Shown piece by piece: positions 46,973 through 52,896 of a DNA stretch of 64,000 bases. Where the stretch lies: the NCBI RefSeq assembly GCF_019312595.1, contig NZ_JAHWDQ010000002.1, positions 372,001-436,000 on the forward strand, given 5' to 3'. The DNA is from Zhongshania aquimaris. GTDB taxonomy: Bacteria; Pseudomonadota; Gammaproteobacteria; Pseudomonadales; Spongiibacteraceae. Under the pieces are notes generated by a model, which ran no database searches, was not told the DNA's origin, and was given only the letters and a program-made list of their open reading frames with translations. Position 1 is the first letter of the stretch; each line of letters starts with the position of its first letter. The position numbers and the translations under genes are program-made.

Positions 46973-47281
46973 ATGAATATCGACGCACTAGAAAAAATGC
47001 TCGCCAAAGGCAACGACAGCGCCATGCTGCGTTTCGGTTTGGGTAAGGCCTACCTCGATAATAAAAAGCCAGACGACGCCATAACGCATTTACAACATTG
47101 CGTAGAACAAGACCCTGACTATTCAGCGGCGTGGAATTTGCTCGGTAAAGCCCATTTGCAGTTGGGTGACAAAGCCTCAGCAGAAACGGTCTGGCAGTCA
47201 GGCTTGGATGTGGCTGTGCGAAAAGGCGATAAACAAACCGAAAAAGAAATTACGGTTTTTTTGAAAAAGCTGAAGAAGTAA
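46973..47281 (+). CDS. Small tetratricopeptide repeat protein
   Basis: 102 residues with two or three TPR motifs (about 15-80: LRFGLGKAYLDNKKPDDAITHLQHCVEQDP, AAWNLLGKAHLQLGDKASAETVWQSGLDV). It begins one base after hemY and is almost certainly co-translated with it. The function is unknown; it is probably an adaptor working with HemY. Confidence 0.85.
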   Translation: MNIDALEKMLAKGNDSAMLRFGLGKAYLDNKKPDDAITHLQHCVEQDPDYSAAWNLLGKAHLQLGDKASAETVWQSGLDVAVRKGDKQTEKEITVFLKKLKK

Positions 47282-47550
47282 ATCTATTCCTTGTATTTTG
47301 TTAGTTGTTTCGGTTAAGTGCTTTAGACTAGCGATAAAAAGTAATTCGCTGATGTGATAATTTCAGGGAGTGAATTTTAAATACGAGCAGGGAAGGAGTT
47401 TAGTGTACATATGGATATGACTATAAAATTAAACACTTAATCGGAGGTATACGTCAAAGTGACGTGTTTAATCAAGTCGTCTAGACGTATATTTAGCTGT
47501 TGGGCGTATTTGAAATATCTGAGTTAACCCTACCCAATTGAGGCAAGAGC
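47282..47550. other. Boundary of the cassette-like island
   Basis: 269 bases, visibly AT-richer than the flanking hem genes. It holds the degenerate attC-like site at 47435-47505 and no credible gene. Confidence 0.4.
47435..47505 (+). other. Degenerate attC-like site upstream of GFA gene
   Basis: Right end GTTGGGC (47499-47505) fits the attC 3' consensus GTTRRRY fully. The left end ACTTAAT (47435-47441) fits RYYYAAC except for the final base. Inner complementary boxes TACGTC (47450-47455) and GACGTA (47484-47489) pair, with spacers of 8 and 9 bases to the outer boxes. The total is 71 bases. It could be the recombination site of a lost preceding cassette. Confidence 0.45.
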
Positions 47551-48021
47551 ATGGCGACTTACCAAGGGGGTTGCAGCTGTGGCGAAACCCGATATCAATT
47601 GATGCGTGGCCCGATGATTGTGCATTGCTGTCACTGCTGCTGGTGCCAAAGGGAGTCTGGTTCAGCATTTGCAGTAAACGGACTAATTGAAGCAGTTGAA
47701 GTTCAATTGCTTAGAGGTGAGCCTGAAGTAATTGATACGCCGTCTAATAGTGGCGGTGGGCAACAAATCACTCGGTGCTCTATCTGCCGCATTGCGCTAT
47801 GGAGTAATTACAGTGCGGCGAAAGACGCGATAAGGTTCGTACGGATGGGAACGCTTGATAAGCCTCAGGCCTTTCCTCCAGATATACATATATTTACTTC
47901 GTCGAAACAATCTTGGATCAATCTAGAAAACGAGCGTTTTGTAGTCGATGAATATTACAGACGGTCGGATTACTGGTCCGAACAGAACATTGCTCGCTAT
48001 AAGGCTGCTATGGGTAAATAG
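47551..48021 (+). CDS. GFA/CENP-V family zinc-binding protein
   Basis: 156 residues of the glutathione-dependent formaldehyde-activating-like family. Zinc cysteines: C8/C10 (GGCSCGETRY), C27/C29/C32 (HCCHCCWCQ) and C76/C79 (RCSICR), with GSAFAVNG following. Members are mostly of unknown activity. It sits between attC-like sites, as a gene cassette would, and is AT-richer than its core-genome neighbours. Confidence 0.88.
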   Translation: MATYQGGCSCGETRYQLMRGPMIVHCCHCCWCQRESGSAFAVNGLIEAVEVQLLRGEPEVIDTPSNSGGGQQITRCSICRIALWSNYSAAKDAIRFVRMGTLDKPQAFPPDIHIFTSSKQSWINLENERFVVDEYYRRSDYWSEQNIARYKAAMGK

Positions 48022-48050
48022 CTCATGATTGTTTACTTAAGTGCGAATAC

Positions 48051-48150
48051 ACCTAACAAATCATTGCAGCGGACATTTTGACCCGCCACCCATTTTTACT
48101 GGCGCAAAAATAGGCGTCGCCTCAAGTTCCGCTGAATTTAGGCGTTACGC
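48051..48150 (+). other. attC integron recombination site
   Basis: Left outer box ACCTAAC (48051-48057) matches RYYYAAC exactly; right outer box GTTACGC (48144-48150) matches GTTRRRY with one change. Inner boxes CAGCGGA and TCCGCTG are perfect complements, each separated from its TAAC/GTTA core by 9 bases. A variable stem-loop with an ATTTTT / AAAAAT inner hairpin lies between. The site starts 30 bases after the GFA stop and ends 18 bases before the next ORF, as in gene cassettes. Confidence 0.8.
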
Positions 48151-48168
48151 ATTTTTAGAGGGATAATA

Positions 48169-48507
48169 ATGATTCAAGCGGCAATAGCATCAGTGCTTCT
48201 TATTTGTGTCTACAAATTTATAAAGACAAATAATGAATATGAGATAGATTGGTGGATGGCATTTGTTTTTGTGCTTGTTCCGGTGCTGCTGATGTTTCTT
48301 ATCTCTATAGGCTTGGGAGTTCTTGAGTTACCACAAGAGTACGCATTGCTAGGGTATCTCTTCTATCTTATCGTGCCGTTCTCGATTCTCAAGTTCGGCC
48401 TTGATTTCAATGCCACAACTGCAATGAAGTTTAGTATATGGGTTCCGGTGGCCGCTGTAATTGCTGAGATACCTTTCGTCATTCTGATGGGCGTGGGCAA
48501 TGCATGA
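48169..48507 (+). CDS. Small integral membrane protein (cassette gene)
   Basis: 112 residues with three to four hydrophobic helices (about 3-15, 28-50, 56-78, 85-108) and no recognised family. GAGGGATAATA is just upstream of the ATG. It lies directly downstream of the attC site and its stop overlaps the next attC-like sequence, the compact layout of integron cassettes. The function is unknown. Confidence 0.7.
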   Translation: MIQAAIASVLLICVYKFIKTNNEYEIDWWMAFVFVLVPVLLMFLISIGLGVLELPQEYALLGYLFYLIVPFSILKFGLDFNATTAMKFSIWVPVAAVIAEIPFVILMGVGNA

Positions 48508-48560
48508 CAAGGCAGTGTTGTCGCAGCGTAAAAAGCGTGCTGCTGGGACGCATTAGCTAT
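48502..48560 (+). other. Weak attC-like sequence after membrane-protein gene
   Basis: From GCATGACAAGGCAG, overlapping the upstream TGA stop, to GACGCATTAG, with a GCAGC / GCTGC inner hairpin. The outer boxes are poor matches to RYYYAAC and GTTRRRY. Its position exactly where a cassette site is expected is the main support. Confidence 0.3.
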
Positions 48561-48615
48561 CGCTCCGGGCCCAAAATCTCAGCGTCGTGTTGAATCAAGC
48601 TGGCGAATTTAAGTA

Positions 48616-48909
48616 ATGATATTTGCGGAATTAAATTACAAAGAACACTATGATGATTTTCATCAATCATTACTTGAATATGTCGATGCTCACTTTGAAC
48701 GCGTGGATTCTGGCCACCAAGGTGATTCCTGGATATGGATTTACGAAGGAGAAAACAAGGTAGCGATAGATACCTTTTCATCTATGAAGCATCAAGTTAA
48801 ATCTGAAACTAGGCAAAACTCACTTGTTCAAAAGGTAATAGAAATACTGCAAAGGAAATACGATTTAGTCGTATATAGTGAACCGAGATCAGAGGGCCAC
48901 GAAGATTAA
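48616..48909 (+). CDS. Hypothetical cassette-type protein
   Basis: 97 residues, soluble, acidic, with HQGDSWIWIYEGENKVAIDTFSSMKHQVKS at about 34-63 and a C-terminal LVVYSEPRSEGHED. The compact alpha/beta composition is typical of small proteins carried on integron cassettes, and the central segment resembles such proteins from memory, unchecked. No function is assigned. There is no strong ribosome binding site, and a GTAATG start context. AT-rich sequence follows it to 49090. Confidence 0.6.
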   Translation: MIFAELNYKEHYDDFHQSLLEYVDAHFERVDSGHQGDSWIWIYEGENKVAIDTFSSMKHQVKSETRQNSLVQKVIEILQRKYDLVVYSEPRSEGHED

Positions 48910-49090
48910 ATTTAAAAGCACATTACAATTTTGGAGTGCCTGTCCTATTGCCCTTTTAATAGGTGAACATATTAGTCGTTACTGGTGATTATATTGTTTG
49001 GAGTTGTATAAGTAGTAATTCAACACTAATGAATAGTCATATATACAGCGTGATTTACCGCTGCCAAATACCAATAAAGGATGTTGAAAG

Positions 49091-50914
49091 ATGACGGAGT
49101 TTGCTCGGGTAATACGCGACTTGGTTTCTGTGCTGCCGGCGGTTTTATATCGACCTCCGAAAGACAATGAAAAGAAATCTCTAGGCCGACTTTTTCAAGA
49201 AACTGCAGCGCGCTATGCAGATAAGTCCGCGATTGTCTTTGAGGGTCGTGAATTAAGCTGGGGTGAATTCAATATCTTAGTTAATCGCCTTGCCCATGCC
49301 TTAAAAGGTCAGGGTGTACAGCGCGGTGATTGCGTTGGTCTTCTAATGGAAAACCGTATCGAGATGCTAGCCTGTTTTTTCGCGCTGGCTAAGCTTGGTG
49401 CGGCGACGGGATTGATTAATACCAGCTTGCAAAGCAAGTCACTGGTTCACTGTATTAATATTACTAATGCAACTAAGTGCATTGTTGGTCAAGAGCTGAT
49501 AGGCAGTATTGCCGACGTTAAAGATGAGTTACCGCTGTCAGACAATGATTTTATTTGGGTTAAAGACGAGGCGCTGACTAGTTCTGTTGCTGAGGTGGGC
49601 CCCGACTCTTTGGCGCCCTCATGGGCCTTAGATGTGATGGCAACATTAGATACTATGCCCAGCGATAATTTGCCCGAGACCCTCGATATTCGAGCGGGCG
49701 AAAAGGCCTGTTATATACTTACCTCTGGCACAACGGGCTTGCCTAAGGCCGCGCTTATATTGCACCGTCGGTATTTGGCCGCATCAGAGCCGTATGCCCG
49801 TATTGGGTTTCGTGCCAAGCAAACAGATAGAATTTATCTTTGCTTGCCGCTCTATCATTTCACAGGTTTAGGTCCCGGCGTTGGGACTAGTCTTTACTCC
49901 GGTGCATCGATATTTCTACGCCGACGTTTTTCGGCTAGTAATTTTTGGTCCGAGGTTCGGGAGCATCAAACGACATTATTTGTATACGTTGGGGAGTTGT
50001 GCCGGTATTTGGCTATGCAAAAAGAATCCCCCGATGAGAAAAATAATCCGATTCAGACCATGGTCGGTAATGGCTTGCGGCCAGATGTGTGGGATGTGTT
50101 TCGACAGCGATTCAAAATACCTCGTATAACGGAGTTTTATGGCTCCAGCGAAGGAAACGCGTTTTTTATTAATTTGCTAAACAAAGATAAAACGATTGGT
50201 ACCACGTCGGCCGATATATTGTTGGTGAAGTATGATTTTGATGCGGATGAAATGGTTCGTGATGCCAAAGGGAAGTTGGCTGAGGTGAATGACGGGGAGC
50301 CCGGTGTTCTCCTGATGAAAATTGATGATCGTTTTAAATTTGATGGTTATAACGACAAGAAAGCATCGAACAGTAAAGTATTGTCAGATGTGAGAAAAAA
50401 GGGTGATCGTTGGTTTAATACTGGTGATGTCATCAAAAAGATTGATGTTGGTTTCGCCCTCGGCCTAGCGCATTATCAATTTGTCGACCGATTGGGTGAT
50501 ACATTTCGATGGCGCTCAGAAAACGTGTCTACGAATGAAGTGGGCGAGATTCTAAATGCGAATTCACAGATTGAGATCGCTAATGTGTATGGCGTAGAAG
50601 TTCCGGGCGTCGAGGGTCGCGCGGGGATGGCGGCAATAACCTTAAGACACGGTGTGGAATTCGATTCTGACGAGTTTTCAAACTACGTTATGACTGAGAT
50701 GCCAGCCTACGCACGACCCGTGTTTATACGGATTCAGCCTGCGGCGGAGACTACCGTCACCTTCAAGTTATTCAAGGCGAGTTTGCGCAAGCAGTCATAT
50801 AATCTTAGTGAAGTTGAGGATGTGATCTATGTGTTAAAACCAAAGTCTAGCCGCTATGAAGTGTTAGATAATGAGTTTTACCAGTCCATTATTAATGGTC
50901 AGCATGGCTACTAA
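49091..50914 (+). CDS. FATP-type long-chain acyl-CoA synthetase
   Basis: 607-residue ANL-superfamily ligase. The P-loop is YILTSGTTGLPKAA (about 211-224), the adenylate-binding segment is TEFYGSSEGN, and the hinge is WFNTGDVI. The GDTFRWRSENVSTNEV segment is typical of the FATP/SLC27 very-long-chain acyl-CoA synthetase group rather than FadD. It should activate fatty acids or related acids with ATP and CoA, perhaps coupled to uptake. It follows the cassette-like island and ends at a strong terminator. Confidence 0.92.
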   Translation: MTEFARVIRDLVSVLPAVLYRPPKDNEKKSLGRLFQETAARYADKSAIVFEGRELSWGEFNILVNRLAHALKGQGVQRGDCVGLLMENRIEMLACFFALAKLGAATGLINTSLQSKSLVHCINITNATKCIVGQELIGSIADVKDELPLSDNDFIWVKDEALTSSVAEVGPDSLAPSWALDVMATLDTMPSDNLPETLDIRAGEKACYILTSGTTGLPKAALILHRRYLAASEPYARIGFRAKQTDRIYLCLPLYHFTGLGPGVGTSLYSGASIFLRRRFSASNFWSEVREHQTTLFVYVGELCRYLAMQKESPDEKNNPIQTMVGNGLRPDVWDVFRQRFKIPRITEFYGSSEGNAFFINLLNKDKTIGTTSADILLVKYDFDADEMVRDAKGKLAEVNDGEPGVLLMKIDDRFKFDGYNDKKASNSKVLSDVRKKGDRWFNTGDVIKKIDVGFALGLAHYQFVDRLGDTFRWRSENVSTNEVGEILNANSQIEIANVYGVEVPGVEGRAGMAAITLRHGVEFDSDEFSNYVMTEMPAYARPVFIRIQPAAETTVTFKLFKASLRKQSYNLSEVEDVIYVLKPKSSRYEVLDNEFYQSIINGQHGY

Positions 50915-50977
50915 AATGTAAAAATACTGGGCAGGCACTGCAATGCTGTGCCCTTCGCAAAGAGTTATTTATACAAA

Positions 50978-51039: not shown

Positions 51040-52683
51040 CTACATCATTTCTTTCATCAAGGCTTGCAGCGCTGCTTCGCGATCACCCAGTAGATCCTGG
51101 TATTGGCTTAGCATGTTTTGCTTGTCTTGGAGTTGCGCCATTTGTGGGCCGTAGTCTTCGCTCAGTTTGGATTTCAGCTTGGTCTGCGCATCGGCGAGTT
51201 GTGATTTCAGTTCCGCGCCCAGCACGTCACCCAGGATGCGATCCAGGTTGGATTTAAGTTTAATGGCGGGGTCGTTGACGGTGCCGTTTACGCTTAAATC
51301 CATAACGAGTTTGCTAACGTCCTCTAGCGCTGCGGCTAGTAAGTTTGCGGTTTTGTTGTCGCTGGCAGTTTTGGCTACCAGGAGTTTTGCTTGATTGACT
51401 AAGCCGGCAACAGATCCTTTGAGATTGTCGCCATCAATAGAAAAGTTCGCTGCAATGTCAGCAATCCCTTTTTCTAATTGCAGTGGCAGTTCTGGGCTTT
51501 GAGAAAGGGATACACCAGATAGAGCGAGTTGCTTTAAGCCCATATTGAAAACACTTTTTAAGGTGTCGTTGCGCTGATCAAAGATACCGTCGATGACCAA
51601 TTGTGATTTCTGTTCCATGCCACCGCGCAGCGCCATGGTGATGGGTTTGTTCCAGTAGTCTTGCTTGTCGGTGACGTCGTTAATTTCGCCTGAGTAAGCA
51701 AGCTTTTCACCGCCGATTACTTGGTAACCGTCGATGAGGATTTTGCGAATTAATATATTTACTGGCAAGTCTGCAGCTGGCTCTGTGCTAGGTGCAGGTT
51801 CTTCTGCACTCGCCATTTTGCCCATAGTTTCTTTATAAAGGGTCAGGCCACGCTGTACAGTGGCATTGACTTCGTCGCCCAGTAAAAAGCGCAACATGCC
51901 TTCAGTGCCTTGGTCTAAACCGTATTTCGACATCATGCGCTTAGATTGATCTGCCGGTAAATTGGCAGCGCGTAGGCTGAGTGACTTGACGGCGGCAGAG
52001 TCGGCTTTCAAATCTTCTTTTAAATTGTCGAACTGGCGGAGCTCGGCTTTGATGTCGTCGCGCAATTCTTTTGCACCGGCGAGACGCTCGATCACGTTTT
52101 TGTTTTTTAGCTCATCCCAGCGTTTTTTGTACTGGTCGAACTGGGTTTGATCAGGGACTTTCTCGGACTTGGTTTTCCAGCGCGATTCAATGTCGGTAAA
52201 GCCAGTTTGAATCTCGGTAACTTCCGCCTGGATGTTGGCTTTTTCTTCCGCCAGCAAGGCATTTGGATCGGGCAGGCTTATGCTTGGCATTCCGCTGGCG
52301 CTGTCTTCCTTAGGTGGCGGCATGCTGCCATCTAAGGTGCCCGGGGTGCTGCGCTCGGTATACATTTGCAGGCCAGATAGCACTACTTGGTCGGCGATAA
52401 CCTGCATTTTCAGCAGGGCTTTGGCGTCGACATCGGCGGAGACTTTTTCGCTTTGCAGAAGGTTGCGCATAGGCTCTTGCGGATTGGCGACAGTAAGGCC
52501 GTTGAGTGCGACGTGGGTGGGATAAAAACTAATATCCACACTATCGACATCGACACGGGCGCCAACTTGTTTGCTACCTTCGCTTTCGATCACAAATTTG
52601 GCAATGGGCTCAAGGGCGAAAACAACACCGATGACCGCGACTACTAGCAGGATGACAATACCCTGCAAAATCCGTTTGAACAT
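51040..52683 (-). CDS. AsmA-like membrane-anchored protein (TIGR03545-like)
   Basis: 547 residues from the ATG at 52681-52683, the first with GGAG upstream (about 10 bases). An N-terminal membrane helix (about 6-25) is followed by a beta-rich AsmA-like segment (VDSVDISFYPTHVALNGLTVANP). A long coiled-coil helical region (about 145-240), further beta structure and a second coiled-coil near the C-terminus follow. The overall form matches the TIGR03545 group. Its usual small TIGR03546 partner is not next to it. Its role is probably envelope lipid or outer-membrane homeostasis, by analogy only. Confidence 0.75.
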   Translation of the reverse strand: MFKRILQGIVILLVVAVIGVVFALEPIAKFVIESEGSKQVGARVDVDSVDISFYPTHVALNGLTVANPQEPMRNLLQSEKVSADVDAKALLKMQVIADQVVLSGLQMYTERSTPGTLDGSMPPPKEDSASGMPSISLPDPNALLAEEKANIQAEVTEIQTGFTDIESRWKTKSEKVPDQTQFDQYKKRWDELKNKNVIERLAGAKELRDDIKAELRQFDNLKEDLKADSAAVKSLSLRAANLPADQSKRMMSKYGLDQGTEGMLRFLLGDEVNATVQRGLTLYKETMGKMASAEEPAPSTEPAADLPVNILIRKILIDGYQVIGGEKLAYSGEINDVTDKQDYWNKPITMALRGGMEQKSQLVIDGIFDQRNDTLKSVFNMGLKQLALSGVSLSQSPELPLQLEKGIADIAANFSIDGDNLKGSVAGLVNQAKLLVAKTASDNKTANLLAAALEDVSKLVMDLSVNGTVNDPAIKLKSNLDRILGDVLGAELKSQLADAQTKLKSKLSEDYGPQMAQLQDKQNMLSQYQDLLGDREAALQALMKEMM

Positions 52684-52896
52684 GAGACGACTTCTCCATC
52701 TGGCGGAATGTACACCGTGGTGCAGAACTTCCGGCATGATTTATTTTGAATTTAATGGGCTTGGTGCGCAGTGTAGCGCTATATCGCCAGCATAGCGCGT
52801 TAGCTATGTCACATAAACCGCTGGCGGTTTAGACCGCCGAGTTGGGCTTTAGTGCGGCGCGAGCTGGGATTAAAATATAGGGCTTTTACAGGCTAG

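Follow-up and report, generated by a model that had tools for sequence, protein, structure and literature searches.

A probable chromosomal integron without its integrase gene in Zhongshania aquimaris, and attI leaders at dispersed attC loci of its genus

Clusters of attC sites that lack an integrase (CALINs) can be either broken integrons or cassettes lodged at secondary sites, and the two are hard to distinguish. Secondary integron insertion sites are called attG. Insertion at such sites by the integron integrase, IntI, has been reported, as cited in the consulted parts of PMC12444791 and PMC12901181. CALINs have been proposed to be degraded integrons (consulted part of PMC9024848), and in Xanthomonas they recur at certain loci outside the main integron, with intI loss leaving attCs behind (consulted part of PMC12444791). 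In T. phagedenis, too, attCs remain without intI (PMC3607928, excerpt), and an early survey found nearly a third of intI genes to be pseudogenes and 20% of bacteria to have more than one intI (PMC2426708, excerpt). A further arrangement is that of the delta-attI cassettes described for class 1 and 2 integrons, in which the place of the attC behind the gene is taken by a shortened attI (14-18 nt for attI1, longer in some; PMC12901181, excerpt).

The locus described here resembles a CALIN in having attC sites and cassettes with no intI nearby. It lies in the 4.25-Mb, 12-contig genome of Zhongshania aquimaris (G000), in a stretch of 64,000 nucleotides that we call the window (G000:C5:372001-436000). 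Looking for the attI of unknown integron classes is a direct test between the two origins, and at this locus, as at most dispersed loci sampled in the genus, it favours the broken integron.

The locus, its recombination sites and its cassettes

The locus occupies a convergent gap between a TPR gene (46973-47281) on the left, behind genes that we take from position and sequence to be hemX/hemY-like, and an opposite-strand gene (51040-52737) on the right. The gap holds three small open reading frames and one acyl-CoA ligase gene. The small genes had been described as AT-rich, and their G+C contents are indeed 47.1, 41.9 and 36.4% (GFA protein, membrane protein and 97-aa ORF, in that order) against 51.4% for the window. 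The ligase belongs to a plus-strand block (48952-50918) that is not a cassette; its DNA is 94.3% identical to that of contig C24 of a relative, G005 (L118:10001-11967), where the counterpart stands at a different position in the genome. Rfam models at the gathering threshold gave zero matches in the window.

We searched for attC sites with a covariance model, R1, whose training set was 20 attCs taken from intI-linked arrays in the genus and a sister genus. Of fifty candidates collected beside intI genes, 30 were dropped on visual inspection because they looked unlikely, closely duplicated others, were short or aligned badly; the window and the rest of its genome were excluded, and the attC types closest to the window's site (L124:14110, L125:3562, L136:9343) were kept out. 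A box search was used solely for collecting candidate array sites, its matches on real loci being barely above those on shuffled sequence. The training alignment was given a hairpin with unpaired extrahelical positions; 88.9% of its cells are paired, against 62.8% after shuffling, and 17 of 22 pairs changed on both sides. The E-values of R1 are rough. Twelve genomes of the order with no intI match at 1e-20 were scanned as controls, and as seven of them gave R1 matches up to E 1 and five gave none, they are not clean negatives. Two of the seven, the complete genomes G083 and G114, have 19 and 10 R1 matches up to E 1 and no integron-integrase match at 1e-20.

Run over the whole window with filters off, R1 matched 48051-48150 at 28.3 bits (E 4.7e-5), and its eight remaining matches up to E 10 reached at most 12.2 bits. 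The covariance-model check suggested with the initial annotation thus bears out the attC claimed there. The site is read on the plus strand as the attC of the first cassette, and the box search locates it on the minus strand. It has outer boxes ACCTAAC and GTTACGC and inner boxes CAGCGGA and TCCGCTG, each 9 bases from its outer box, as had been noted. Its bottom-strand DNA fold is better than chance (z = -3.1; 2 of 200 shuffles equally good), with the inner boxes paired and the outer boxes open in the minimum-energy structure. It resembles attCs of other arrays, being 84% identical over 96 nt to one in the intI-linked array L136 and 81% identical over 104 nt to one in L122. This is a genuine, near-intact attC.

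A second, weak attC had been proposed at 48502-48560. That part of the claim which made it an attC stands: a profile of array attCs from four intI-linked loci (L124, L136, L036, L131) matches 48502-48585 on the plus strand at 59.0 bits (E 2.1e-17), against a best score of 11.3 bits on 20 shuffled windows. The extent was too short, and the site, placed at 48502-48590, is a decayed attC. We call it decayed because the R1 scan of the window found no match at 48502-48585, its core is GTC instead of the conserved GTT, and it folds no better than its shuffles (z 0.7), so that neither the conserved core nor the hairpin of an attC is present. It belongs to an attC family other than that of 48051-48150.

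The leftmost site, at 47435-47505, had been taken for a degenerate attC. R1 has no match there, and the sequence is instead a conserved one with homologues beside broken intI genes of relatives. In a blastn search of a nine-locus database, the window locus (L170) aligned with an orphan attI locus of G005 (C63, L173) over 168 nt at 69% identity (E 1.7e-9), the alignment covering 47337-47501 with the core included. A model of the eight other copies of this type, which we call attI-B, matched 47387-47501 (nhmmer, E 1.9e-13) and gave zero matches in 20 shuffled windows; a leader profile without the 42-nt core was not significant against the window. The core, TGACGTGTTTAAWCAMGTC-N15-TAGCTG^TT, stands at 47460-47501 on the plus strand, with the crossover G at 47499. 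With its fixed 15-nt spacing, the attI-B pattern occurs at nine places in 4 of 145 genomes, and the pattern read backwards at none.

The surroundings of these copies are those of an attI. The window's attI is tied by blastn to L137 (G005:C19) and to a locus in G011, and the L137 copy immediately precedes the divergently oriented start of a broken intI. The copies at L172 and L176 adjoin shorter intI fragments, so that fragments lie beside three of the nine copies, all on the expected side. An R1 attC match follows within about 0.75 kb downstream of the window copy and of six of the eight others. The window core, which ends in G^TT, is thus homologous to a sequence with a divergent intI on one side and the first cassette on the other, and we take 47435-47505 for an attI and not an attC, its presumed function following from position and conservation. 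The plus-strand sequence at 47337-47459, which in a complete integron lies between intI and attI, is a leader remnant with no intI left.

From the attI rightwards, the locus reads as attI, GFA cassette, attC, membrane-protein cassette, decayed attC and likely third cassette, all on the plus strand. The first cassette (47500-48144) carries a gene for a 156-aa protein (47551-48021) whose assignment to the GFA family is confirmed by Pfam PF04828 (E 8.9e-27). An 82% identical homologue lies in an attC array on an unrelated 3.8-kb metagenome-assembled contig labelled Bdellovibrionales (L162; three R1 matches, E 0.003, 0.01 and 0.06). The DNA alignment of the two runs from 47507, 6 nt past the attI core, to 48147, at the attC core, so that the homology starts and stops at the ends of the cassette in the window. 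The right end in L162 is an attC (E 0.01); on the upstream side about 220 nt separate the aligned part from the end of the closest R1 match, leaving the left end without a recognised attC. Followed by an attC, recurring in another array with matching ends and matching the window's attI crossover on the left, the GFA gene is a cassette that begins at that crossover. A plasmid search listed 43 records with GFA homologues below 60% identity.

The second cassette (48145-48584), bounded by the two attC cores, encodes a small protein of 112 aa (48169-48507), called a membrane protein by eye from its composition. A 56% identical homologue (L184, G005:C30) is directly followed by a weak attC-like sequence, GCATAAC...GGCGTTATAC (R1 14.6 bits, E 0.11). 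The 97-aa hypothetical protein (48616-48909) is not followed by an attC: R1 found none after it in the window and had no match at the locus of its homologue (L186). Since the ligase block, 94% identical to DNA elsewhere in G005, already begins at 48952, this likely third cassette is cut short or has no visible attC. Neither of the two proteins matched a Pfam family over the cut-off. The plasmid search had no match for the membrane protein and listed 11 records with distant Synechocystis proteins for the 97-aa one (best 36%).

At the locus itself tblastn found no remnant of intI, and so the initial picture, in which integron cassettes and their attC sites have no integrase close by, holds. For the genome as a whole the absence is partial, since half an intI is kept on contig C10. 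This N-terminal fragment (104.8 bits) is the best match to the integrase profile, none being over the 265-bit cut-off; four other matches reached at most 54.8 bits, and we take them for other tyrosine recombinases. The assembly is in 12 contigs, and contig ends are where several of the attC loci are found, so that a gap could hide an intact intI. The fragment on C10 (L014:2808-3239), the sole recognised integron integrase of the genome, is 143 aa long, an N-terminal half followed by a different end, and goes with an attI leader, a first cassette formed by a 752-aa ORF, and a 65-bit attC at the contig end. Similar starts of a transposase-like ORF were seen by eye right behind attC sites at a contig end (L014:1-80) and at another locus (L214:5524-5715).

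The initial annotation had also asked whether the three genes are conserved here in relatives. None was found near the same TPR gene in fetched stretches of 16 relatives (tblastn, E 1e-10), and with the R1 match at 48051-48150 neither outcome that the annotation had named as refuting it was observed. The TPR gene and the 51040 homologue are adjacent in eight relatives, the interval there holding other genes, and no alignable empty site was found among these eight intervals. In G016 and G017 the same TPR gap contains a class A intI-attI leader (E 4e-24 to 5e-24) and, by eye, a toxin-antitoxin-like gene pair; in G003 it contains a weak attC (22.3 bits, E 0.0085), the sole R1 match in 20 loci. 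The class A leader and the weak attC suggest that this gap took in integron material more than once. The toxin-antitoxin-like pairs, judged by eye, stand at L102:2780-3031 (G016) and in L103 (G003), in the same gap as the window cassettes.

Leaders at dispersed attC loci in the genus

Whole-genome R1 scans gave at least 21 matches up to E 1 in the Z. aquimaris genome (150 of 1403 candidates scored) and, in seven relatives, at least 79 matches at E 0.001 or better, in 45 clusters (150 candidates scored each). These counts are lower bounds, because 150 of 1174-1757 candidates were scored per genome and rescans of fetched loci added sites. Thirty-five of the 45 clusters lie over 20 kb from the intI matches considered, and all of them were examined, together with 11 further loci of the Z. 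aquimaris genome. We searched up to 5 kb upstream of the attCs for leaders of matching orientation, with profiles of three classes, A, B and C, and with single leaders of other intI genes.

A leader in the right orientation was present at 30 of the 35 clusters and at 9 of 12 loci in the Z. aquimaris genome (the window counted, L014 not); the models found no attI at the remaining five and three. Pieces of intI were detected by tblastn at 9 of 53 loci overall, at six of the 35 clusters (L233, L241, L246, L250, L251, L255) and at none of the 12 own loci. L219-L224 had been chosen for their attI-B; they stay out of the leader count except for L222, which belongs to the 35 clusters as well. Among 20 loci picked for other reasons (L102-L121), leader matches occurred in L102, L104 and L120 only. 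In this genome and its relatives, the majority of the dispersed attC loci examined thus have a leader with attI, mostly without intI. At L222:4828-6881 (G011:C1) a class A leader leads straight into a pair of class B attI sites that stand 1.6 kb from each other and enclose a cassette, an arrangement of stacked platforms.

Many of these leaders share a left end. Twelve of 18 class A leaders start at model positions 50-61 (the others being L222, L225, L227, L232, L248 and L256) and 7 of 10 class C leaders at 48-54, with L211, L215 and L247 full-length; for the 12 and the seven alike, the left end lies roughly 50 nt from the intI start. By eye, three G006 loci (L226, L228, L229) have a common junction, ...GTCAGTCGCTGA, with the leader immediately after it, and L231 and L218 have another. 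The intact integron L126 carries the same left sequence directly behind its intI stop, and the integrase-free units therefore resemble products of internal deletion in which intI was lost together with its promoter. A left-end motif, GTCACATTAGCGG[AT]CA, occurs within 220 nt upstream of 8 of 36 class A, B and C leaders against 19 of 2000 random windows; searched on both strands, it does not recur in inverted orientation at the opposite end of its units. A repeated element around GGCTCTAGCGTCACATTAGCGG[AT]CA was seen at the left ends of some integron units (L226:673, L228:5264, L231:4117) and three times in the TPR gap of G005 (L105).

All 28 class A and C leaders carry a TTGA-N-TATGAT-like element, against 268 of 2000 random 260-nt stretches, and no promoter of this type was found in the window's leader. 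Trees of the leaders do not unite the integrase-free ones into a single clade, either in class A or in class C, and 3 of 22 and 3 of 9 branches are supported, respectively. Because there is no single clade and few branches are supported, repeated formation of the shared left end is at least as likely as a single origin. We infer repeated losses of intI and its promoter with a preferred end, in which the part carrying attI and the presumed cassette promoter stayed behind; active spread of the deleted form is possible.

Tentatively, one can go further and suppose that across the genus the integrase-free platforms, each of leader, attI and cassettes, are a dispersed non-autonomous element, spreading as ready-made expression platforms that are filled or emptied in trans by an IntI coded elsewhere. 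What prompts the idea is the left end at the presumed -35 of the intI promoter, seen in two leader classes and several lineages, and the same deletion junction at three G006 loci. The failure of the leader trees to unite the deleted forms weakens it, and we regard it as rather doubtful.

Origin of the locus

Because an attI precedes the first cassette, the simplest reading is that of a chromosomal integron, at 47337 to about 48950, whose integrase gene was lost; we give this a probability of about 0.8. Weighing against it are the leader profile that is not significant without the core, the lack of a class A/C-type promoter in the window's leader, the miss of the second site by R1, the open outer boxes of the first, the left end of the GFA cassette in L162, the third ORF with no attC, and the chance that an intact intI sits in an assembly gap. 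With the sites and cassette ends located, the attI identified by homology and by the position of its homologues, no recognisable intI at the locus, and the same layout of attI without intI at most of the dispersed attC loci examined, we infer what the locus once did, in which order it changed and how it could serve now. IntI would have inserted the cassettes at attI (attC x attI). Later intI would have been deleted and the array would have frozen. The probable third cassette, its end gone, abuts an unrelated ligase block. With an IntI acting in trans, the GFA cassette's near-intact attC may still be mobilisable.

The initial annotation had instead supposed cassettes dropped into the chromosome, which the attI ahead of the first cassette does not support. 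In its attG form, this explanation has IntI placing cassettes in a secondary chromosomal site, with an upstream sequence that is merely attI-like. Scattered loci with a single attC are what secondary insertion would leave, and the clusters and own loci at which the models found no attI would fit as well. At the window, however, the left flank of the cassettes is an attI with its leader and not the plain chromosome of an empty site; about 115 nt upstream are homologous to attI regions, some of them beside intI remnants, which is unlike a short secondary site. As most other dispersed loci examined also have an attI leader, secondary insertion seems a poor candidate here. An account by chance motifs in an AT-rich gap between two operons holding ordinary small genes could appeal to the AT-richness and to the two genes without a Pfam family, but the R1, attI-B and decayed-attC matches stand so far above the rest of the window and the shuffled controls that it is refuted for practical purposes and has next to no probability.

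It is less improbable than either of these, if still unlikely, that the attI travelled with the cassettes as an attI-bearing unit, comparable to the delta-attI type, and that no integrase was ever at the locus. Such travel would account for the five attI-B copies of G011, two of which stand 1.6 kb from each other on either side of a cassette, for the many class A and C orphan leaders with one common left end, and for the presence of two attI classes in one gap, the TPR gap holding a class A leader in G016 and G017; delta-attI cassettes also provide a precedent. Those described, however, have mostly short pieces of attI downstream of the gene, and here about 115-165 nt of attI and leader lie upstream of the first cassette. 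That three of the nine attI-B copies keep intI fragments in the expected place also speaks against a travelling unit.

Comparison with known systems

The locus has two attC-derived sites and no intI, and a CALIN asks for at least two attCs. Since R1 recognises one of the two, a search that requires two attCs might miss it. Its difference from a CALIN is that it keeps an attI, a feature not reported for CALINs in the consulted part of PMC9024848. With the chromosomal integrons of its relatives G008, G006 and G001 it shares attC families, the attI-leader architecture and cassettes read away from attI; it differs from them in having no intI, few cassettes and one attC in decay.

Like the loci of Xanthomonas and Treponema, it has attC sites that outlast intI. 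Here, in contrast, an attI leader is kept at most dispersed loci examined, in several classes and in the genome itself as well as in seven of seven relatives. The delta-attI cassettes likewise have attI sequence outside its usual place, whereas the window's long attI leader stands upstream of the cassettes. In a literature search that covered few subscription papers, we met no account of integrase-free platforms that carry an attI and are scattered through a genus. This natural set of integrase-free platforms with promoter-like leaders is suited to tests of mobilisation in trans and of selection against the integrase. The CALIN and the decayed integron are known forms, and the form that keeps its attI and is dispersed genus-wide is new.
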